The notes under the pieces are model-generated. The model saw nothing but the letters and a program-made list of their open reading frames with translations, made no database searches and was not told the DNA's origin. From Gemmatimonadota bacterium (GTDB lineage: Bacteria; Gemmatimonadota; Gemmatimonadetes; Gemmatimonadales; Gemmatimonadaceae): a DNA stretch of 34,616 nucleotides. Shown here in pieces: positions 24,166 through 31,139 of the stretch. Both the position numbers and the translations under genes were made by a program. Positions within the stretch are counted from its first letter, which is position 1. The number at the start of each line of letters is the position of its first letter. The stretch is taken from contig JAJTGR010000044.1 in NCBI GenBank assembly GCA_021299375.1, positions 1 to 34,616 of the forward strand. Reading direction: 5' to 3'.

Positions 24166-25470
24166 TCAATCGAGGCAGCGTGTGCGAAGCGCCTCCGCCT
24201 CTACCGCGACAATGCGGTGCAGCGTGTCGCACGTGACTTGATCGCCCGTCTGTGTCGCCACGGCCTGCAGCACGTCGTCGAGTGCGCCGGCCATGCAGGC
24301 CACCACGTCGTCCAAGACCTCGCGCACGAGCCCGGCTGTCAGCCCGAACTCGCGCGCGATGACGACAGGGGTGTGCGCGTTGAACGCGTCCACCTGTCGC
24401 GTGCCCCCCAAGGCGAGCGGCAACGTGCGGTCCAACTCCGGATAGGCCAGCGTGCACACGACATCGTAGGCCGGCGCCAGGCGACGGGTATCCTGCGCAT
24501 CGTACAGCAGGCTCACGTTCTTGGCGTGCGCATCGCGATTGCCGATGACGATGTTGGCGAGTGCCCAGCGGAGCAGCCGTTCACGATCGGTGGCCGCGTC
24601 ACCGCTGTAGCGGTTGAGCGCCGCCGACAGCATCTGAAAGGTGGGGCCGCTCGGGTCGGCGTACTTGTTGATGGAGACGAAGCCCGTGAGTTGGCACCCG
24701 TCTTCGGCGTGCAGCCGACGAATGCGGCCATCGGGCTGTGACAGACGATCGAACCGCGCCGTCTCGTACACCGCCTCGTGCAACGCATTGACCGTGCGCG
24801 GCGCCGTGGGAACACCGGCCCGTTCCATGAGGGACATGCTGGCAATCTCGTTGGCCACCAATCCCGGATAGTGCAGTCGGTCGCGCTTGCAGATGACGTT
24901 GCCGGGCGCGCCGTTGACAGGCAATCGGTAGGTCACATCGCGATCGCCGACCGTGGGTTCGCGACGGAGCACGATCTTGGCCTGCACCCCACTCATGGAC
25001 TGCCGAGCGAGGCGTTGGGGCAGCGGCCCGGACGCCGTCGGGGCCTCCGACACCGCGCGGCCGCCAAACAGACGCTCGAGCGTCGCCCGTGTGCACGGTG
25101 CATAGGCTGGGGGATCGGGCGGACCGAACCCCTCGGGCCACAACGTCAGGGCCCCGGCGCATTCCCCACCGATGACGCCCAGCAACCCCACCACATCATT
25201 CGGTGAACGGTGGGCGGACTGCGCCAGCACCGTACGGAGGTCGCTTTCGGGGAGCAGATTCTCGAAGCAGGGGAGTGCGTCACGATCCCCATACGGCGCG
25301 CGGCGCACCGGCAGGCGCACGCTGACTGCGCACTCGGGGCGATCCCATACCGCTTCGTGATACGTGAAGCGGAGTCGACCGCTCGCGTCACTTTCGAGGA
25401 TGCCGACCTCGGTGAGGTCACGCCACACCGTCAGTCGATGGTCTAAAGCCGAGCCCGTCAGGTCCGTCAC
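24166..25470 (-). CDS. hipA: HipA-type serine/threonine kinase toxin
   Basis: A 434-residue type II toxin of HipBA systems, a kinase that in E. coli phosphorylates glutamyl-tRNA synthetase and causes dormancy. The N-terminal Couple_hipA domain (about 10-110: WRDLTEVGILES, CFENLLPESDLR) precedes the kinase core: QSMSGVQAKIVL with the gly-rich loop and Ser158 at the place of the autophosphorylated Ser150, NIVIGNRDAHAKN with catalytic Asp313, and LAPAYDV with metal-binding Asp336. All kinase residues are intact and the length matches E. coli HipA (440), so it is probably functional. Its ATG overlaps the hipB stop (ATGA), the usual coupled arrangement. Confidence 0.93.
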   Translation of the reverse strand: MTDLTGSALDHRLTVWRDLTEVGILESDASGRLRFTYHEAVWDRPECAVSVRLPVRRAPYGDRDALPCFENLLPESDLRTVLAQSAHRSPNDVVGLLGVIGGECAGALTLWPEGFGPPDPPAYAPCTRATLERLFGGRAVSEAPTASGPLPQRLARQSMSGVQAKIVLRREPTVGDRDVTYRLPVNGAPGNVICKRDRLHYPGLVANEIASMSLMERAGVPTAPRTVNALHEAVYETARFDRLSQPDGRIRRLHAEDGCQLTGFVSINKYADPSGPTFQMLSAALNRYSGDAATDRERLLRWALANIVIGNRDAHAKNVSLLYDAQDTRRLAPAYDVVCTLAYPELDRTLPLALGGTRQVDAFNAHTPVVIAREFGLTAGLVREVLDDVVACMAGALDDVLQAVATQTGDQVTCDTLHRIVAVEAEALRTRCLD

Positions 25471-25808
25471 TCGGCTGACTCGGCGTCTGGTCCTCCGCGC
25501 TGGGCATCCCGCAGCGAGATGCGGGGGTCGCGCGGGACGAGGACAACATCCAGACCGAGGCCGGCGAGGATCTCGAGAGCGTTCTGGAGGCGCACGCCTT
25601 CGGTACCGCTCTCCAGGCGGTGCAGAACCGCCGTGCTCACTCCGAGTTGCCCGGCGGTGTCGCGCTGCCGCTTTCCGCGCAGCTGGCGAAGGTACCGGAC
25701 GACCTGCCCCAGCTCGTCAGCCGAGTAGACCGCGGCGCCTCGGGCGTGAGTACCGGGCGGCGGTGGGGGAAGGTCGGGCGTCTGGGGCTTGGAGACTGTT
25801 CTTGGCAT
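25467..25808 (-). CDS. hipB: HipB-type XRE antitoxin
   Basis: A 113-residue antitoxin and autorepressor that binds HipA and the operon operator. Residues ~30-95 hold an XRE-type helix-turn-helix (GKRQRDTAGQLGVSTAVLHRLESG, the region around 45-68, followed by RLQNALEILAGLGLDVVLV). The N-terminal ~28 residues are Pro-rich (TPDLPPPPPG) and extend past the usual HipB start; the C-terminal tail (RDAQRGGPDAESAE) is acidic and probably disordered. The ATG at 25808 is the first in frame downstream of an AT-rich promoter region. It is upstream of and overlapping hipA. Confidence 0.9.
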   Translation of the reverse strand: MPRTVSKPQTPDLPPPPPGTHARGAAVYSADELGQVVRYLRQLRGKRQRDTAGQLGVSTAVLHRLESGTEGVRLQNALEILAGLGLDVVLVPRDPRISLRDAQRGGPDAESAE

Positions 25809-28009: not shown

Positions 28010-28780
28010 TCAGTTCAAGTCGTGTGGCGATTCACTGGCGAACTCCGCATCGAGCCGATCGAAGTAGCGCACGCAGGCCGCGAGCCACTGCTTTCGGATG
28101 TCCGGCAGCGGGTCGCCAGTGTTGAGCGCTTGGAGAACCTCGTCCAGCTCCGGCGCCTCGAGCGGCACGTCGTGCAGGCCGCCGAATACGTGCACGTCGT
28201 CCACGTCCATGATGTAGGCGAGTACCGCGAACTCCGGGGTGAGGCCGTGGCTGGACTCGGCCTCATAGACGTACGGCTCGCGGTCGTCGTCCGCTGGGGC
28301 GAGGCTGTTGCGCACGGTGAGTCCCACGCCCGGCTCCGGGTCGACCACGCGCCAGATGCCGAGCGTGCTCGCGCGGTGTGCCTGCACGAAGGCGACGGTG
28401 TCGGGGTCCATGCGGGCGCCGTGTCGGGCCTGCTGCGCGGCGAGCCACTGCGCGGCCACCGGGCCCTCCTCGGCCTTGGCGGCAAAGTGGTACACACCCC
28501 AAGTGGTAAACAGGTCGCCCTCTTCCTCCGGGAGATCGGCGTCGGGGGCGAGCCCCCACGCGTCGTAGGCGGTGTTCATCCACTCGGGGCCAAGCCGGCG
28601 ATCGGCCCAGTCGAGGATGTCCTGGGAGATGCGCTTGTTGCGCTGCCGCACGGCGTCGGCGCGGCGCACATTGGCGAGCACCGCGTGCGGCAAGGTGGCC
28701 GCCTCGGGGGAGACGGCGGCGCCGTGGCACTTCTTGAACTTGCGGCCGGAGCCGCAGGGGCAGGGGGCGTTGCGGTCCAT
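28010..28780 (-). CDS. SEC-C metal-binding motif protein
   Basis: A 256-residue protein whose N-terminus is a SEC-C motif: NAPCPCGSGRKFKKCHG (residues 4-20), a zinc-binding C-P-C-G-S-G-x-K-x-K-x-C-H cluster as at the C-terminus of SecA. The remaining ~235 residues are acidic and mostly alpha-helical (WGVYHFAAKAEEGPVAAQWL, TPEFAVLAYIMDVDDVHVFG), with no recognised enzyme motif. SEC-C appended to unknown domains is common and points to protein or ribosome contact, not a specific reaction. A long hairpin lies 34 bases upstream. Confidence 0.75.
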   Translation of the reverse strand: MDRNAPCPCGSGRKFKKCHGAAVSPEAATLPHAVLANVRRADAVRQRNKRISQDILDWADRRLGPEWMNTAYDAWGLAPDADLPEEEGDLFTTWGVYHFAAKAEEGPVAAQWLAAQQARHGARMDPDTVAFVQAHRASTLGIWRVVDPEPGVGLTVRNSLAPADDDREPYVYEAESSHGLTPEFAVLAYIMDVDDVHVFGGLHDVPLEAPELDEVLQALNTGDPLPDIRKQWLAACVRYFDRLDAEFASESPHDLN

Positions 28781-28813
28781 GGGCGGACGGGGTGGGGGTG
28801 TGCGACTGATTCT

Positions 28814-28906
28814 AACCCCCAGGGAACAGGGGGAAGGGGGTCAGTATGGAGTGAGCAGTCACTGCTTACTCCTTCCTGACCCCCTCCTTCCTGACGCCTG
28901 GGGGTT
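28814..28906. repeat. 93-bp long hairpin (45-bp arms, 3-base loop)
   Basis: Bases 28814-28858 and 28862-28906 are inverted copies without gaps, matching at 36 of 45 positions (by hand count), with loop TCA. The inner 23 pairs are 20/23 (GGGGGTCAG...GAGCAG against CTGC...CTGACCCCC). The right arm contains CTCCTTCCTGAC-type units in tandem (around 28870 and 28884). It separates the SDR stop from the SEC-C start. It could act as a terminator for the SDR gene, or be a MITE/REP-type element; no T tract is obvious. Confidence 0.75.
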
Positions 28907-28935
28907 CAATCCCCGCCGCCCACACAGCACCTGCT

Positions 28936-29673
28936 TCACGCCAGCGTCAACACCTGCCCCGTCACATTCCGCGCCATCGGACTCGCCAGGAATGCCACCA
29001 CGTCGGCCACGCTCCCACGCTCCACGTAGCTGGTCGAGTCGCCCATGTCGGCCACGTTCGACGCCGTGCGAATGGCCGTCGGCGCCACGGCATTCGCGCG
29101 CACACCGTGCGCCTTTTCGTCGAGCGCCACGGTGCGCATGAGGCTCAGCACCCCGCTCTTGGCGGCCGCGTAGGCGGCCATGCCTTTGGAAGAGCCGCCG
29201 GGGGTGGCGGCCACACTTCCGAAGTACACGAAGCTGCCGCGGGCGGCGCGCACGGCCGGAAGGAACGCGCGCGTGGTCGCGAATGCGGTCTCGAGGTTGA
29301 TGGTGAACTGCTTCGTCCACGCCGCCGGGTCAGCGTCGCTGAGCGGGCCGGTCATGCCGAAACCGCCGGCCACGCAGATCACCGCGTCCACCTGGCCAGC
29401 GTGATGTCGCTGGTGCGCAGCGAGCACATCGGCGGCCACCCGCTCGGCGTCGGCCGGGTCGGCGAGGTTGGCGGCGTGGGCGGTGACGGGGCCAAGCCGC
29501 TCGGCGGTCAAGGCGAAGGCGCGGTCGGTGACCTGCTCGAGCGCGAGATCGATGAGGGCCAGCGACGCGCCGCGCTGTGCGAAGCCATGGGCGATGGCCT
29601 CGCCCACCTGGCCGGCGCGGCCGACGCCGGTGATAACGATGAGGCGGCCGGAGAAGTCGAGGGGGTTGGACAT
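28936..29673 (-). CDS. Short-chain dehydrogenase/reductase (SDR family)
   Basis: A 245-residue classical SDR. It shows the nucleotide loop TGVGRAGQVGEAIA (residues 15-28, the TGxxxGxG type), and the catalytic triad Ser153 (YFGSVAA), Tyr168 and Lys172 (AAYAAAKSG). The NNAG motif is replaced by VAGG (101-104), a known variation. The C-terminal part ends FLASPMARNVTGQVLTLA, the usual SDR finish. Asp42 after the second strand favours NAD(H) over NADP(H). The substrate is not readable. The next upstream gene (CIA30) lies on the same strand about 66 bases before the start, and the SDR may follow in the same transcript. Confidence 0.9.
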   Translation of the reverse strand: MSNPLDFSGRLIVITGVGRAGQVGEAIAHGFAQRGASLALIDLALEQVTDRAFALTAERLGPVTAHAANLADPADAERVAADVLAAHQRHHAGQVDAVICVAGGFGMTGPLSDADPAAWTKQFTINLETAFATTRAFLPAVRAARGSFVYFGSVAATPGGSSKGMAAYAAAKSGVLSLMRTVALDEKAHGVRANAVAPTAIRTASNVADMGDSTSYVERGSVADVVAFLASPMARNVTGQVLTLA

Positions 29674-29739: not shown

Positions 29740-30381
29740 CTACTCGTCGCCCGCCCCGTACGAGCGCACCCAATCCACTTCCAGGCGAAAGGGCCCGTCC
29801 TGCCCATCGGCCATGTACAGCCCGAGTCCCCGGATGCGCGCCACATCGATGGGCGGGGCGTTCACCGCCCGCCCGAAGATGGTGCTCCGCAGTGCGCTGA
29901 AGGGCACCCGCACCACCGTCCACTCGGCCGACGTCGCAAACGGCGCCCGTCGCGACACGGTGCGGCCGTAGGCCCGCACGCCGTCGTCGAGCTCCACCTC
30001 GAACTGGCGGCCACTGCCGCGGACCCGGAGCTCGATCCCGAGCTGCCCGGTGAGATCCACCGCCCGGCGCGCCCGCACCGAGGTGAAGCCGCCGCCCTGC
30101 GTGACCAGGGTGCCGGTGAAGCGCAGCGTGCCCTGCTCGACCGCCACGAAACCCGCCGATCGGCCGCCCATGACGCCGTCATTGACCACGTCCCACTCGG
30201 CTTCGTCGGCGCGGTCGAAGGTGAAGAGCGTCACCGGCGCCGGCTGCAGTGCGGGTTGAGCGGCGGAGCGGCTCGGCCCCGCGAATGCCGCGAGTACGAG
30301 CAGCATGGCGGGAAGCACCCGTCGTGCGCGCCGGCGGCGCCACGATGACGGGCGACGGGTGCTGTTGGGTGCATGGGGCAT
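29740..30381 (-). CDS. Exported CIA30-domain protein
   Basis: A 213-residue protein with a basic N-terminus (RRPSSWRRRRARR) and hydrophobic signal (VLPAMLLVLAAFAGPSRSA, cleavage near AAQ). The domain matches CIA30/NDUFAF1-like jelly-roll proteins: FTFDRADEAEWDVVNDGVMGGRSAGF is the N-terminal hallmark (NDGVMGG), and WTVVRVPFSALRSTIFG with the C-terminal LGLYMADGQDGPFRLEVDWVR are the last strands. In mitochondria the domain helps assemble complex I; bacterial forms are poorly understood and an exported one is unlikely to do that. The ATG at 30381 is chosen over a much longer frame to 30723, which runs antisense through the vapB gene. Confidence 0.82.
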   Translation of the reverse strand: MPHAPNSTRRPSSWRRRRARRVLPAMLLVLAAFAGPSRSAAQPALQPAPVTLFTFDRADEAEWDVVNDGVMGGRSAGFVAVEQGTLRFTGTLVTQGGGFTSVRARRAVDLTGQLGIELRVRGSGRQFEVELDDGVRAYGRTVSRRAPFATSAEWTVVRVPFSALRSTIFGRAVNAPPIDVARIRGLGLYMADGQDGPFRLEVDWVRSYGAGDE

Positions 30382-30477
30382 GACGGGGTCCTGGTTGAGC
30401 GCAGCGCAGCGGGCATCCGTCGAGAAAGCGGCGCCGGAGGGGCCGGGTTCCATGGTGGCGATATTGACCGTGCCGCG

Positions 30478-30492
30478 TATATGCAGCATATA
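30478..30492 (+). promoter_or_regulatory. Palindromic operator TATATGC-A-GCATATA upstream of vapB
   Basis: A perfect inverted repeat with 7-base arms lies 6 bases before the antitoxin ATG in an AT-rich stretch of otherwise GC-rich DNA. Ribbon-helix-helix antitoxins bind such short symmetric sites over their own promoters. No Shine-Dalgarno sequence is visible before the ATG, so the transcript may be leaderless or nearly so. Confidence 0.6.
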
Positions 30493-30498
30493 TATGGC

Positions 30499-30729
30499 AT
30501 GAAGCGCACCACGGTGTTCTTTGATGACCAGATGATGCTCCAGCTGCAGCGGGCCGCGCAGCGTTCGGGCGTGAGCACGGCGTCGCTCGTGCGCGAGGCT
30601 GTCGCCAGGTATCTCGCGGCTCCCGGAGCGACGTCGCCGCTGCCGTCCATTGCGGGGCAGTTTGCGAGCGGCGCGAGCGATACCTCCGAGCAGGTGGACA
30701 CCCTGTTGTGGAAGGATCCGCACGGCTGA
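30499..30729 (+). CDS. vapB: Ribbon-helix-helix (CopG/VapB-type) antitoxin
   Basis: A 76-residue antitoxin. MKRTTVFFDDQMMLQLQR supplies the beta strand, and GVSTASLVREAVARYL (about residues 24-39) is the second RHH helix pair. The acidic C-terminal tail (SDTSEQVDTLLWKDP) is the expected toxin-wrapping segment. The stop overlaps the PIN toxin ATG (TGATG). The gene sits next to its own palindromic operator and should repress itself together with the toxin. Confidence 0.88.
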   Translation: MKRTTVFFDDQMMLQLQRAAQRSGVSTASLVREAVARYLAAPGATSPLPSIAGQFASGASDTSEQVDTLLWKDPHG

Positions 30730-31139
30730 TGGTCATTTGTGATACCGGGCCGCTGTATGCGCTGGTCGATCGCAGCGATGCGTGGCATGAGCGGGTGACC
30801 GCGTGGTGGACGGCCCAGGCGCGTCATGTGCGCGTGCCCATCACGGTGTTGCCCGAAGTGTGCTATCTGCTGCAGACGCGCATCGGCGCGCAGGCGGAGC
30901 AGGCGTTCGTGCGATCGGTGGCCAGCGGCGAGCTGCTCATCGAGCCGGTGGAATCGGACGACGTGGTTCGCGCCTCGGCACTGATGCGCGAGTACCTCGA
31001 CTTCCCCCTGGGCTTCGTGGATGCGACGGTAATGGCCGTCGCCGAACGACTCGGTGCCCGCGAGATCCTCACCACCGACCGGCGTCATTTCAGCGCGGTG
31101 CGCACGGAACGGAATCGATTGGTGTCGTTGGTGCCGTAA
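30729..31139 (+). CDS. vapC: VapC-type PIN-domain ribonuclease toxin
   Basis: A 136-residue PIN toxin, a Mg-dependent endoribonuclease (known VapCs cut initiator tRNA or rRNA). The acidic residues are all present: Asp5 (MVICDTGPLYAL), Glu43 (VLPEVCYLL), Asp98 (GFVDATVMAVAERLG) and Asp117 (ILTTDRRHF). The ATG at 30729 overlaps the antitoxin stop; a GTG at 30708 would add seven residues. Full length and intact, so likely active. It converges on the degenerate vapC that begins 32 bases after its stop. Confidence 0.9.
   Translation: MVICDTGPLYALVDRSDAWHERVTAWWTAQARHVRVPITVLPEVCYLLQTRIGAQAEQAFVRSVASGELLIEPVESDDVVRASALMREYLDFPLGFVDATVMAVAERLGAREILTTDRRHFSAVRTERNRLVSLVP

Follow-up and report, generated by a model that had tools for sequence, protein, structure and literature searches.

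The window analysed here is a stretch of 34,616 nt from a Gemmatimonadota genome and contains a long hairpin at positions 28814–28906. This structure lies between a gene for a short-chain dehydrogenase/reductase (SDR), whose stop codon it follows at a distance of 29 nt, and a gene for a protein with an N-terminal SEC-C motif, whose start lies 33 nt further on (Table 1). Both genes were part of the original prediction and are confirmed by gene calls and Pfam matches. No other short-range inverted repeat in the window is as strong as this hairpin, whose two 46-nt arms are separated by a single nucleotide and are 80% complementary. A reading with 45-nt arms and 36 matches out of 45, as first proposed, is the same structure rewritten with a TCA loop, and the term ‘near-perfect’ used for it is an overstatement because nine of the 46 arm pairs are mismatched. 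The reality of the 93-bp hairpin is borne out by RNA folding, which yields –99.2 kcal/mol as against –66.7 ± 4.4 kcal/mol for dinucleotide-shuffled sequences, none of 200 being as stable (z = –7.4), and no hairpin of comparable score was detected in 1.2 Mb of block-shuffled sequence from Gemmatimonadota genomes. As anticipated, the right arm holds a repeated CTCCTTCCTGAC, present in two copies. A structural model, R2, recognizes the hairpin on both strands, the plus-strand match spanning 28808–28911 with 60.6 bits.

Table 1. Features at the hairpin locus (window coordinates). Both arms belong to the 14 units on which model R1 was trained; model R2 was trained solely on hairpins from other genomes, with the window copy left out.
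Feature	Position	Strand	Basis
Downstream gene, protein with N-terminal SEC-C motif	28010–28780	–	Pfam SEC-C
Whole hairpin, structural model R2	28804–28911	–	62.7 bits, E 4.2e-12
Left 46-nt unit of hairpin	28814–28859	+	Model R1, E 7.6e-12
Right 46-nt unit, inverted copy of left	28861–28906	–	Model R1, E 2.2e-12
CTCCTTCCTGAC sub-unit 1	28869–28880	+	Read directly, 15-nt period
CTCCTTCCTGAC sub-unit 2	28884–28895	+	Read directly
Upstream gene, short-chain dehydrogenase/reductase (SDR)	28936–29673	–	Pfam adh_short_C2/adh_short

The hairpin had been judged to go far beyond a terminator. This holds for its length but not for its position, which is where a terminator or another 3′-end hairpin would sit. 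Intrinsic terminators combine a GC-rich stem with a T-rich tract; the tract is missing at the window copy, which is therefore no textbook example of this class. The remark that the structure is unrelated to CRISPR is correct though uninformative. A T-arm-like GGGGGTTCAATCCCC adjoins the right arm, and a tRNA or tmRNA remnant was considered and rejected when ARAGORN returned nothing. Known RNA families were likewise discarded: Rfam gave only miRNA models far below their gathering scores, of a kind that fits any long stem.

Elsewhere in the window, a HipA-like kinase that contains Couple_hipA and HipA_C domains (24166–25808, –) adjoins a helix-turn-helix protein, the two constituting a HipBA-type toxin–antitoxin pair. 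A PIN-domain (VapC-like) gene is located at 30708–31139 (+), and the short ORF just upstream of it (30373–30729) is, from its position alone, a possible antitoxin.

The hairpin is a member of a repeat family. A whole-genome BLAST search of the kind proposed at the outset returned 17 matches to positions 28780–28935 in the window's own genome (4.48 Mb in 116 contigs, 96% complete), and the element is thus neither single-copy nor, as described below, devoid of conservation in relatives. Alignment of 14 arms without reference to structure produced the unit consensus AACCCCcAGGcaTCAGGggGaAGGGnnTCAGGaaGGAGgGaGCAGt. The 46-nt unit (AACCCCcAGGcaTCAGGRRgGAGGGnnTCAGGRRGGAGnGaGCAGT) has approximately 40 occurrences in this genome, where a sequence-only unit model gives 48 matches at E ≤1 and 43 at E ≤0.01; it is encountered both as inverted pairs and as lone units. 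The original prediction had therefore picked out a real feature and named the correct class among the several it listed: ‘REP-like element’ is right in kind, as the repeat is multi-copy, palindromic and extragenic, is located at gene 3′ ends and exists as inverted pairs and single remnants.

Beyond this genome, 60 stretches from public genomes carry the core motif RGGAGGGTRTCAGGRRGGAGG; 57 of them come from Gemmatimonadota MAGs, the relative G011 (CANHTA) among these. Close relatives show 30–60 matches to the hairpin model, both strands counted. The consensus arm of freshwater relatives reads AACTGCCAACnGCTTAGGRRGCAGGRRGGAGGGTRTCAGGRRGGAGGRnGCAGG and flanks a variable loop of ∼15 nt. Model R2, which was built on hairpins of such freshwater relatives, matches 26 of 30 congeners and, across the phylum, 23 of the 121 genomes drawn, all inside the order to which the window's genome belongs; the distant matches denote a shared type more than shared descent, because any long purine-rich hairpin gains stem score. 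When ∼1.2 Mb of sequence from five genomes was scanned for hairpins without bias, long ones appeared in all five, nearly all of them intergenic and differing in sequence between lineages.

The distribution of the family relative to genes is strongly skewed. Complete hairpins at public loci occupy 21 convergent gaps, 11 co-directional gaps and no divergent gap, whereas the corresponding background counts are 62, 176 and 56, which corresponds to a convergent enrichment with an odds ratio of 7.1 (p = 5e-7); these counts rely on a simple codon-usage gene caller and are approximate. At these loci a paired hairpin lies at a median of 14 nt from a stop codon, and in each of the 11 co-directional gaps it is closer to the 3′ end of the upstream gene. 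The 14 hairpin pairs checked in the window's own genome show the same pattern, with eight convergent, six co-directional and none divergent. Some copies in relatives carry T5–6 directly 3′ of an inner stem. Among convergent gaps, a T-tract terminator is found in 2 of the 25 that hold a hairpin as opposed to 9 of the 35 that do not, a difference that is suggestive only of hairpins substituting for such terminators.

Orthologous sites display both retention and turnover. In the closest relative, G006, a homologous but diverged hairpin is kept after the SDR stop codon and is followed by a different gene. In G031, presumably G. aurantiaca T-27, ∼55 bp separates SDR from the SEC-C gene next to it, and the hairpin is missing. 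In two other relatives, long hairpins unrelated in sequence were observed, in G002 (L199) at the same position behind the SDR gene and in G036 (L189) near it. One G011 copy has a near-identical hairpin in five relatives, the six genomes being 97% identical in the hairpin versus ∼87–88% in the flanks, and the same site is empty in G041 and G032. Filled and empty orthologous sites, a trait of ERIC and MITE elements, thus both exist, with insertion boundaries that are not recoverable exactly. Another G011 copy is retained at the same place in seven genomes, its arms having diverged through multi-base changes that are paired; a separate ordinary terminator is located 3′ of this hairpin.

The pairing itself is conserved. 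Across 35 aligned hairpins, 89.0% of cells are paired versus 86.4% in shuffles, and double-compensated cells number 87 as against 54.7 ± 7.7 (0 of 500 shuffles as high); sliding controls of the alignment bring pairing down to 41–55%. Covariation is restricted to the outer stem (permutation p below 2e-4) and emerged only when 45–46 hairpins were available, an early comparison between arms within one genome having given none. Between copies there is wide variation in the loop and at the inner positions. Three inner positions are paired in only 10, 10 and 4 of 45 hairpins versus roughly 22, 15 and 13 expected, with several different mismatch types, and the matching alignment pairs 43–94 and 50–87 are unpaired in 22 of 35 and 27 of 35. 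These conserved inner mismatches may go back to a master copy as a founder effect, or they may be the outcome of selection for an internal loop; they constitute a lead only, because the columns were chosen after the data had been seen.

The window hairpin is one copy of a lineage-specific dispersed palindromic repeat of Gemmatimonadota that probably, though by no means certainly, acts as a symmetrical 3′-end hairpin. As family copies are almost always located just after stop codons, a gene-end RNA hairpin is the most likely identity. The 46-nt unit, arranged as an inverted pair behind stop codons and preferentially between convergent genes, is presumably transcribed, and whichever strand is read, the RNA would fold into a long stem. 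Once Rho-dependent release and exonuclease trimming have taken place, this stem may mark the end of the transcript and protect it; the hairpin itself may pause or stop RNA polymerase. Such a manner of action would be that of REP/BIME and ERIC elements. Rho is present, and position, symmetry, conservation of pairing and Rho all fit a 3′-end hairpin that serves transcripts arriving from either side; a terminating or stabilizing function is suggested by position and conservation. There are precedents for such a role. REPs are reported to lie mostly 3′ of coding regions, where the neighbouring ORFs are unidirectional or convergent (PMC3733652), stem-loops cluster at gene 3′ ends in many genomes (PMC1590033) and E. 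coli 3′ ends devoid of U-tracts carry REP hairpins that stabilize RNA ends and do not terminate transcription (PMC13289151).

A possible, though rather unlikely, alternative is that the family is a selfish non-autonomous element, REPIN- or MITE-like, moved by some transposase, with single units as decayed remnants and with survival at gene 3′ ends only because insertions are least harmful there. The 3′-end position could accordingly reflect tolerance of insertions instead of function. Dispersed copies, lone units alongside pairs, the presence/absence polymorphism described above (six filled sites against the two empty ones, and SDR/SEC-C without a hairpin in G031) and the inverted doublet, which is the REPIN layout (PMC3116915), are in keeping with mobility. 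A mobile origin at some point is indeed likely, since copies are dispersed and sites polymorphic. As an account of the present-day family, the selfish element is opposed by the many copies that, with compensatory changes, have kept their site across diverged species and by the lack of an evident mover. No REP transposase (Y1) was found in the window's genome; Y1 transposases occur in 8 of 30 congeners, unlinked to the family, and a REP transposase was rejected as partner. Three Y1 transposase genes checked in hairpin-rich relatives (L286, L287, L288) end in or beside a different hairpin of their own, TTCAAGGGGTCAGAGTCGTTGAA. In none of the genomes checked was a cognate REP-associated tyrosine transposase found with the repeat at its flanks; these genomes are mostly drafts of varying completeness, so that this absence is not proof. 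Target-site duplications are not apparent either: among 36 copies, six share 2–3 nt at the junction versus about two expected, and none has TA termini, the ends typical of ERIC and MITE elements. The suggestion of a MITE is thus unsupported.

A broader extension of the 3′-end reading may be offered, with considerable doubt: fast-turning families of long symmetrical hairpins might form a standing system in Gemmatimonadaceae by which convergent transcripts are ended or insulated. Sequences would be particular to each lineage, stems would be kept by compensatory change and the inner mismatch (a two-base internal loop plus one mismatch) would be under selection as a recognition mark or against cleavage of perfect palindromes.

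It is less probable still that the element operates at the level of DNA, as a cruciform or as a binding site for a protein (a nucleoid protein, gyrase or a domain boundary) where transcription units collide; we know of no such protein here. Strand symmetry, the conserved inner mismatches and the retention in the arms of the blocks GCAGG, GGAGGG and TCAGG besides pairing would be explained. On the transcribed strand, co-directional copies have 41 G-U and 39 A-C mismatches, hence no G-U bias; this gives no sign of RNA-level selection on one strand and leaves room for a DNA-level role. The absence from divergent gaps and the proximity to stop codons are nonetheless a better match to a role at transcript ends.

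A source of processed small RNA or double-stranded RNA, which had also been proposed, would accord with a long stem on both strands and is very improbable in view of Rfam matches nowhere near gathering score and a loop and inner positions that are highly variable between copies. Integron attC sites or scattered derivatives were considered because the window's genome encodes integron integrases, and imperfect hairpins after stop codons are in line with them, but this identity is virtually untenable: the RYYYAAC and GTTRRRY boxes are both present in 0 of 60 family hairpins, no unit lies near the four integrase genes examined and, unlike cassettes, the copies are mostly between convergent genes. 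Two homologues of integron integrases were noted, at G000:C60:41443-42378 and G000:C72:1029-1967, and one of them contains an in-frame TAG.

Compared with known systems, the 3′-end hairpin family most closely recalls the REP, BIME and REPIN elements of Pseudomonas and enterobacteria, which are also repeated extragenic palindromes, often inverted doublets besides singlets, located 3′ of coding regions between convergent and co-directional genes (PMC3733652, PMC3116915). The Gemmatimonadota unit differs in its length (46 nt versus 20–40 nt), in its tens rather than hundreds of copies, in the missing transposase and in the absence of a GTAG or CGTC end tag from both the unit consensus and the freshwater consensus. 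The ERIC/IRU and YPAL/RU-2 elements of enterobacteria are long intergenic palindromes of 127 and 168 bp, ERIC having TA termini and target duplications (PMC2229807). The present family is of similar size and likewise has no linked transposase, whereas its sequence is unrelated and those ERIC hallmarks are not seen. ERIC acts mainly by destabilizing upstream mRNA, in one orientation; the Gemmatimonadota element has no preferred orientation. The untagged stem-loop families Bor, Ype and Efa are repeated near gene 3′ ends and have no known transposase (PMC1590033), but differ in sequence and phylum; for the Gemmatimonadota family, the present analysis describes covariation and inner mismatches. 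Bidirectional intrinsic terminators share the GC-rich hairpin between convergent genes; the stem here is about twice the usual length, has a repeated sequence and usually lacks the T-tract.

The family is apparently new, although its kind, a REP/ERIC-like dispersed palindrome, is familiar: a limited search of the Gemmatimonas literature revealed no description of such repeats, and nothing was found on long hairpins between convergent genes. If the 3′-end reading is correct, the family would furnish gene-end markers for Gemmatimonadota, where 3′-end biology appears little studied, and a natural experiment in the origin and replacement of palindromic repeats without a visible transposase. It would also call for caution, as family repeats can be points at which contigs break in draft assemblies of these genomes.

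A few further arrangements deserve mention. G006 harbours tandem palindrome arrays with CTGCCGTCTG units (G006:C1:7066-7996 and 97473-98637; L256, L260), each palindrome being ∼217 bp with ∼238-bp spacing. A lone family unit apparently falls within an ORF, at what seems to be one locus in several MAGs (L111, L114, L135, L153, L156, L166); the arrangement recalls the palindromic elements found in Rickettsia genes. Finally, in four MAG loci (L110, L152, L154, L167) a lone unit lies between divergent genes, its distances being similar from locus to locus, and may represent a regulatory site.
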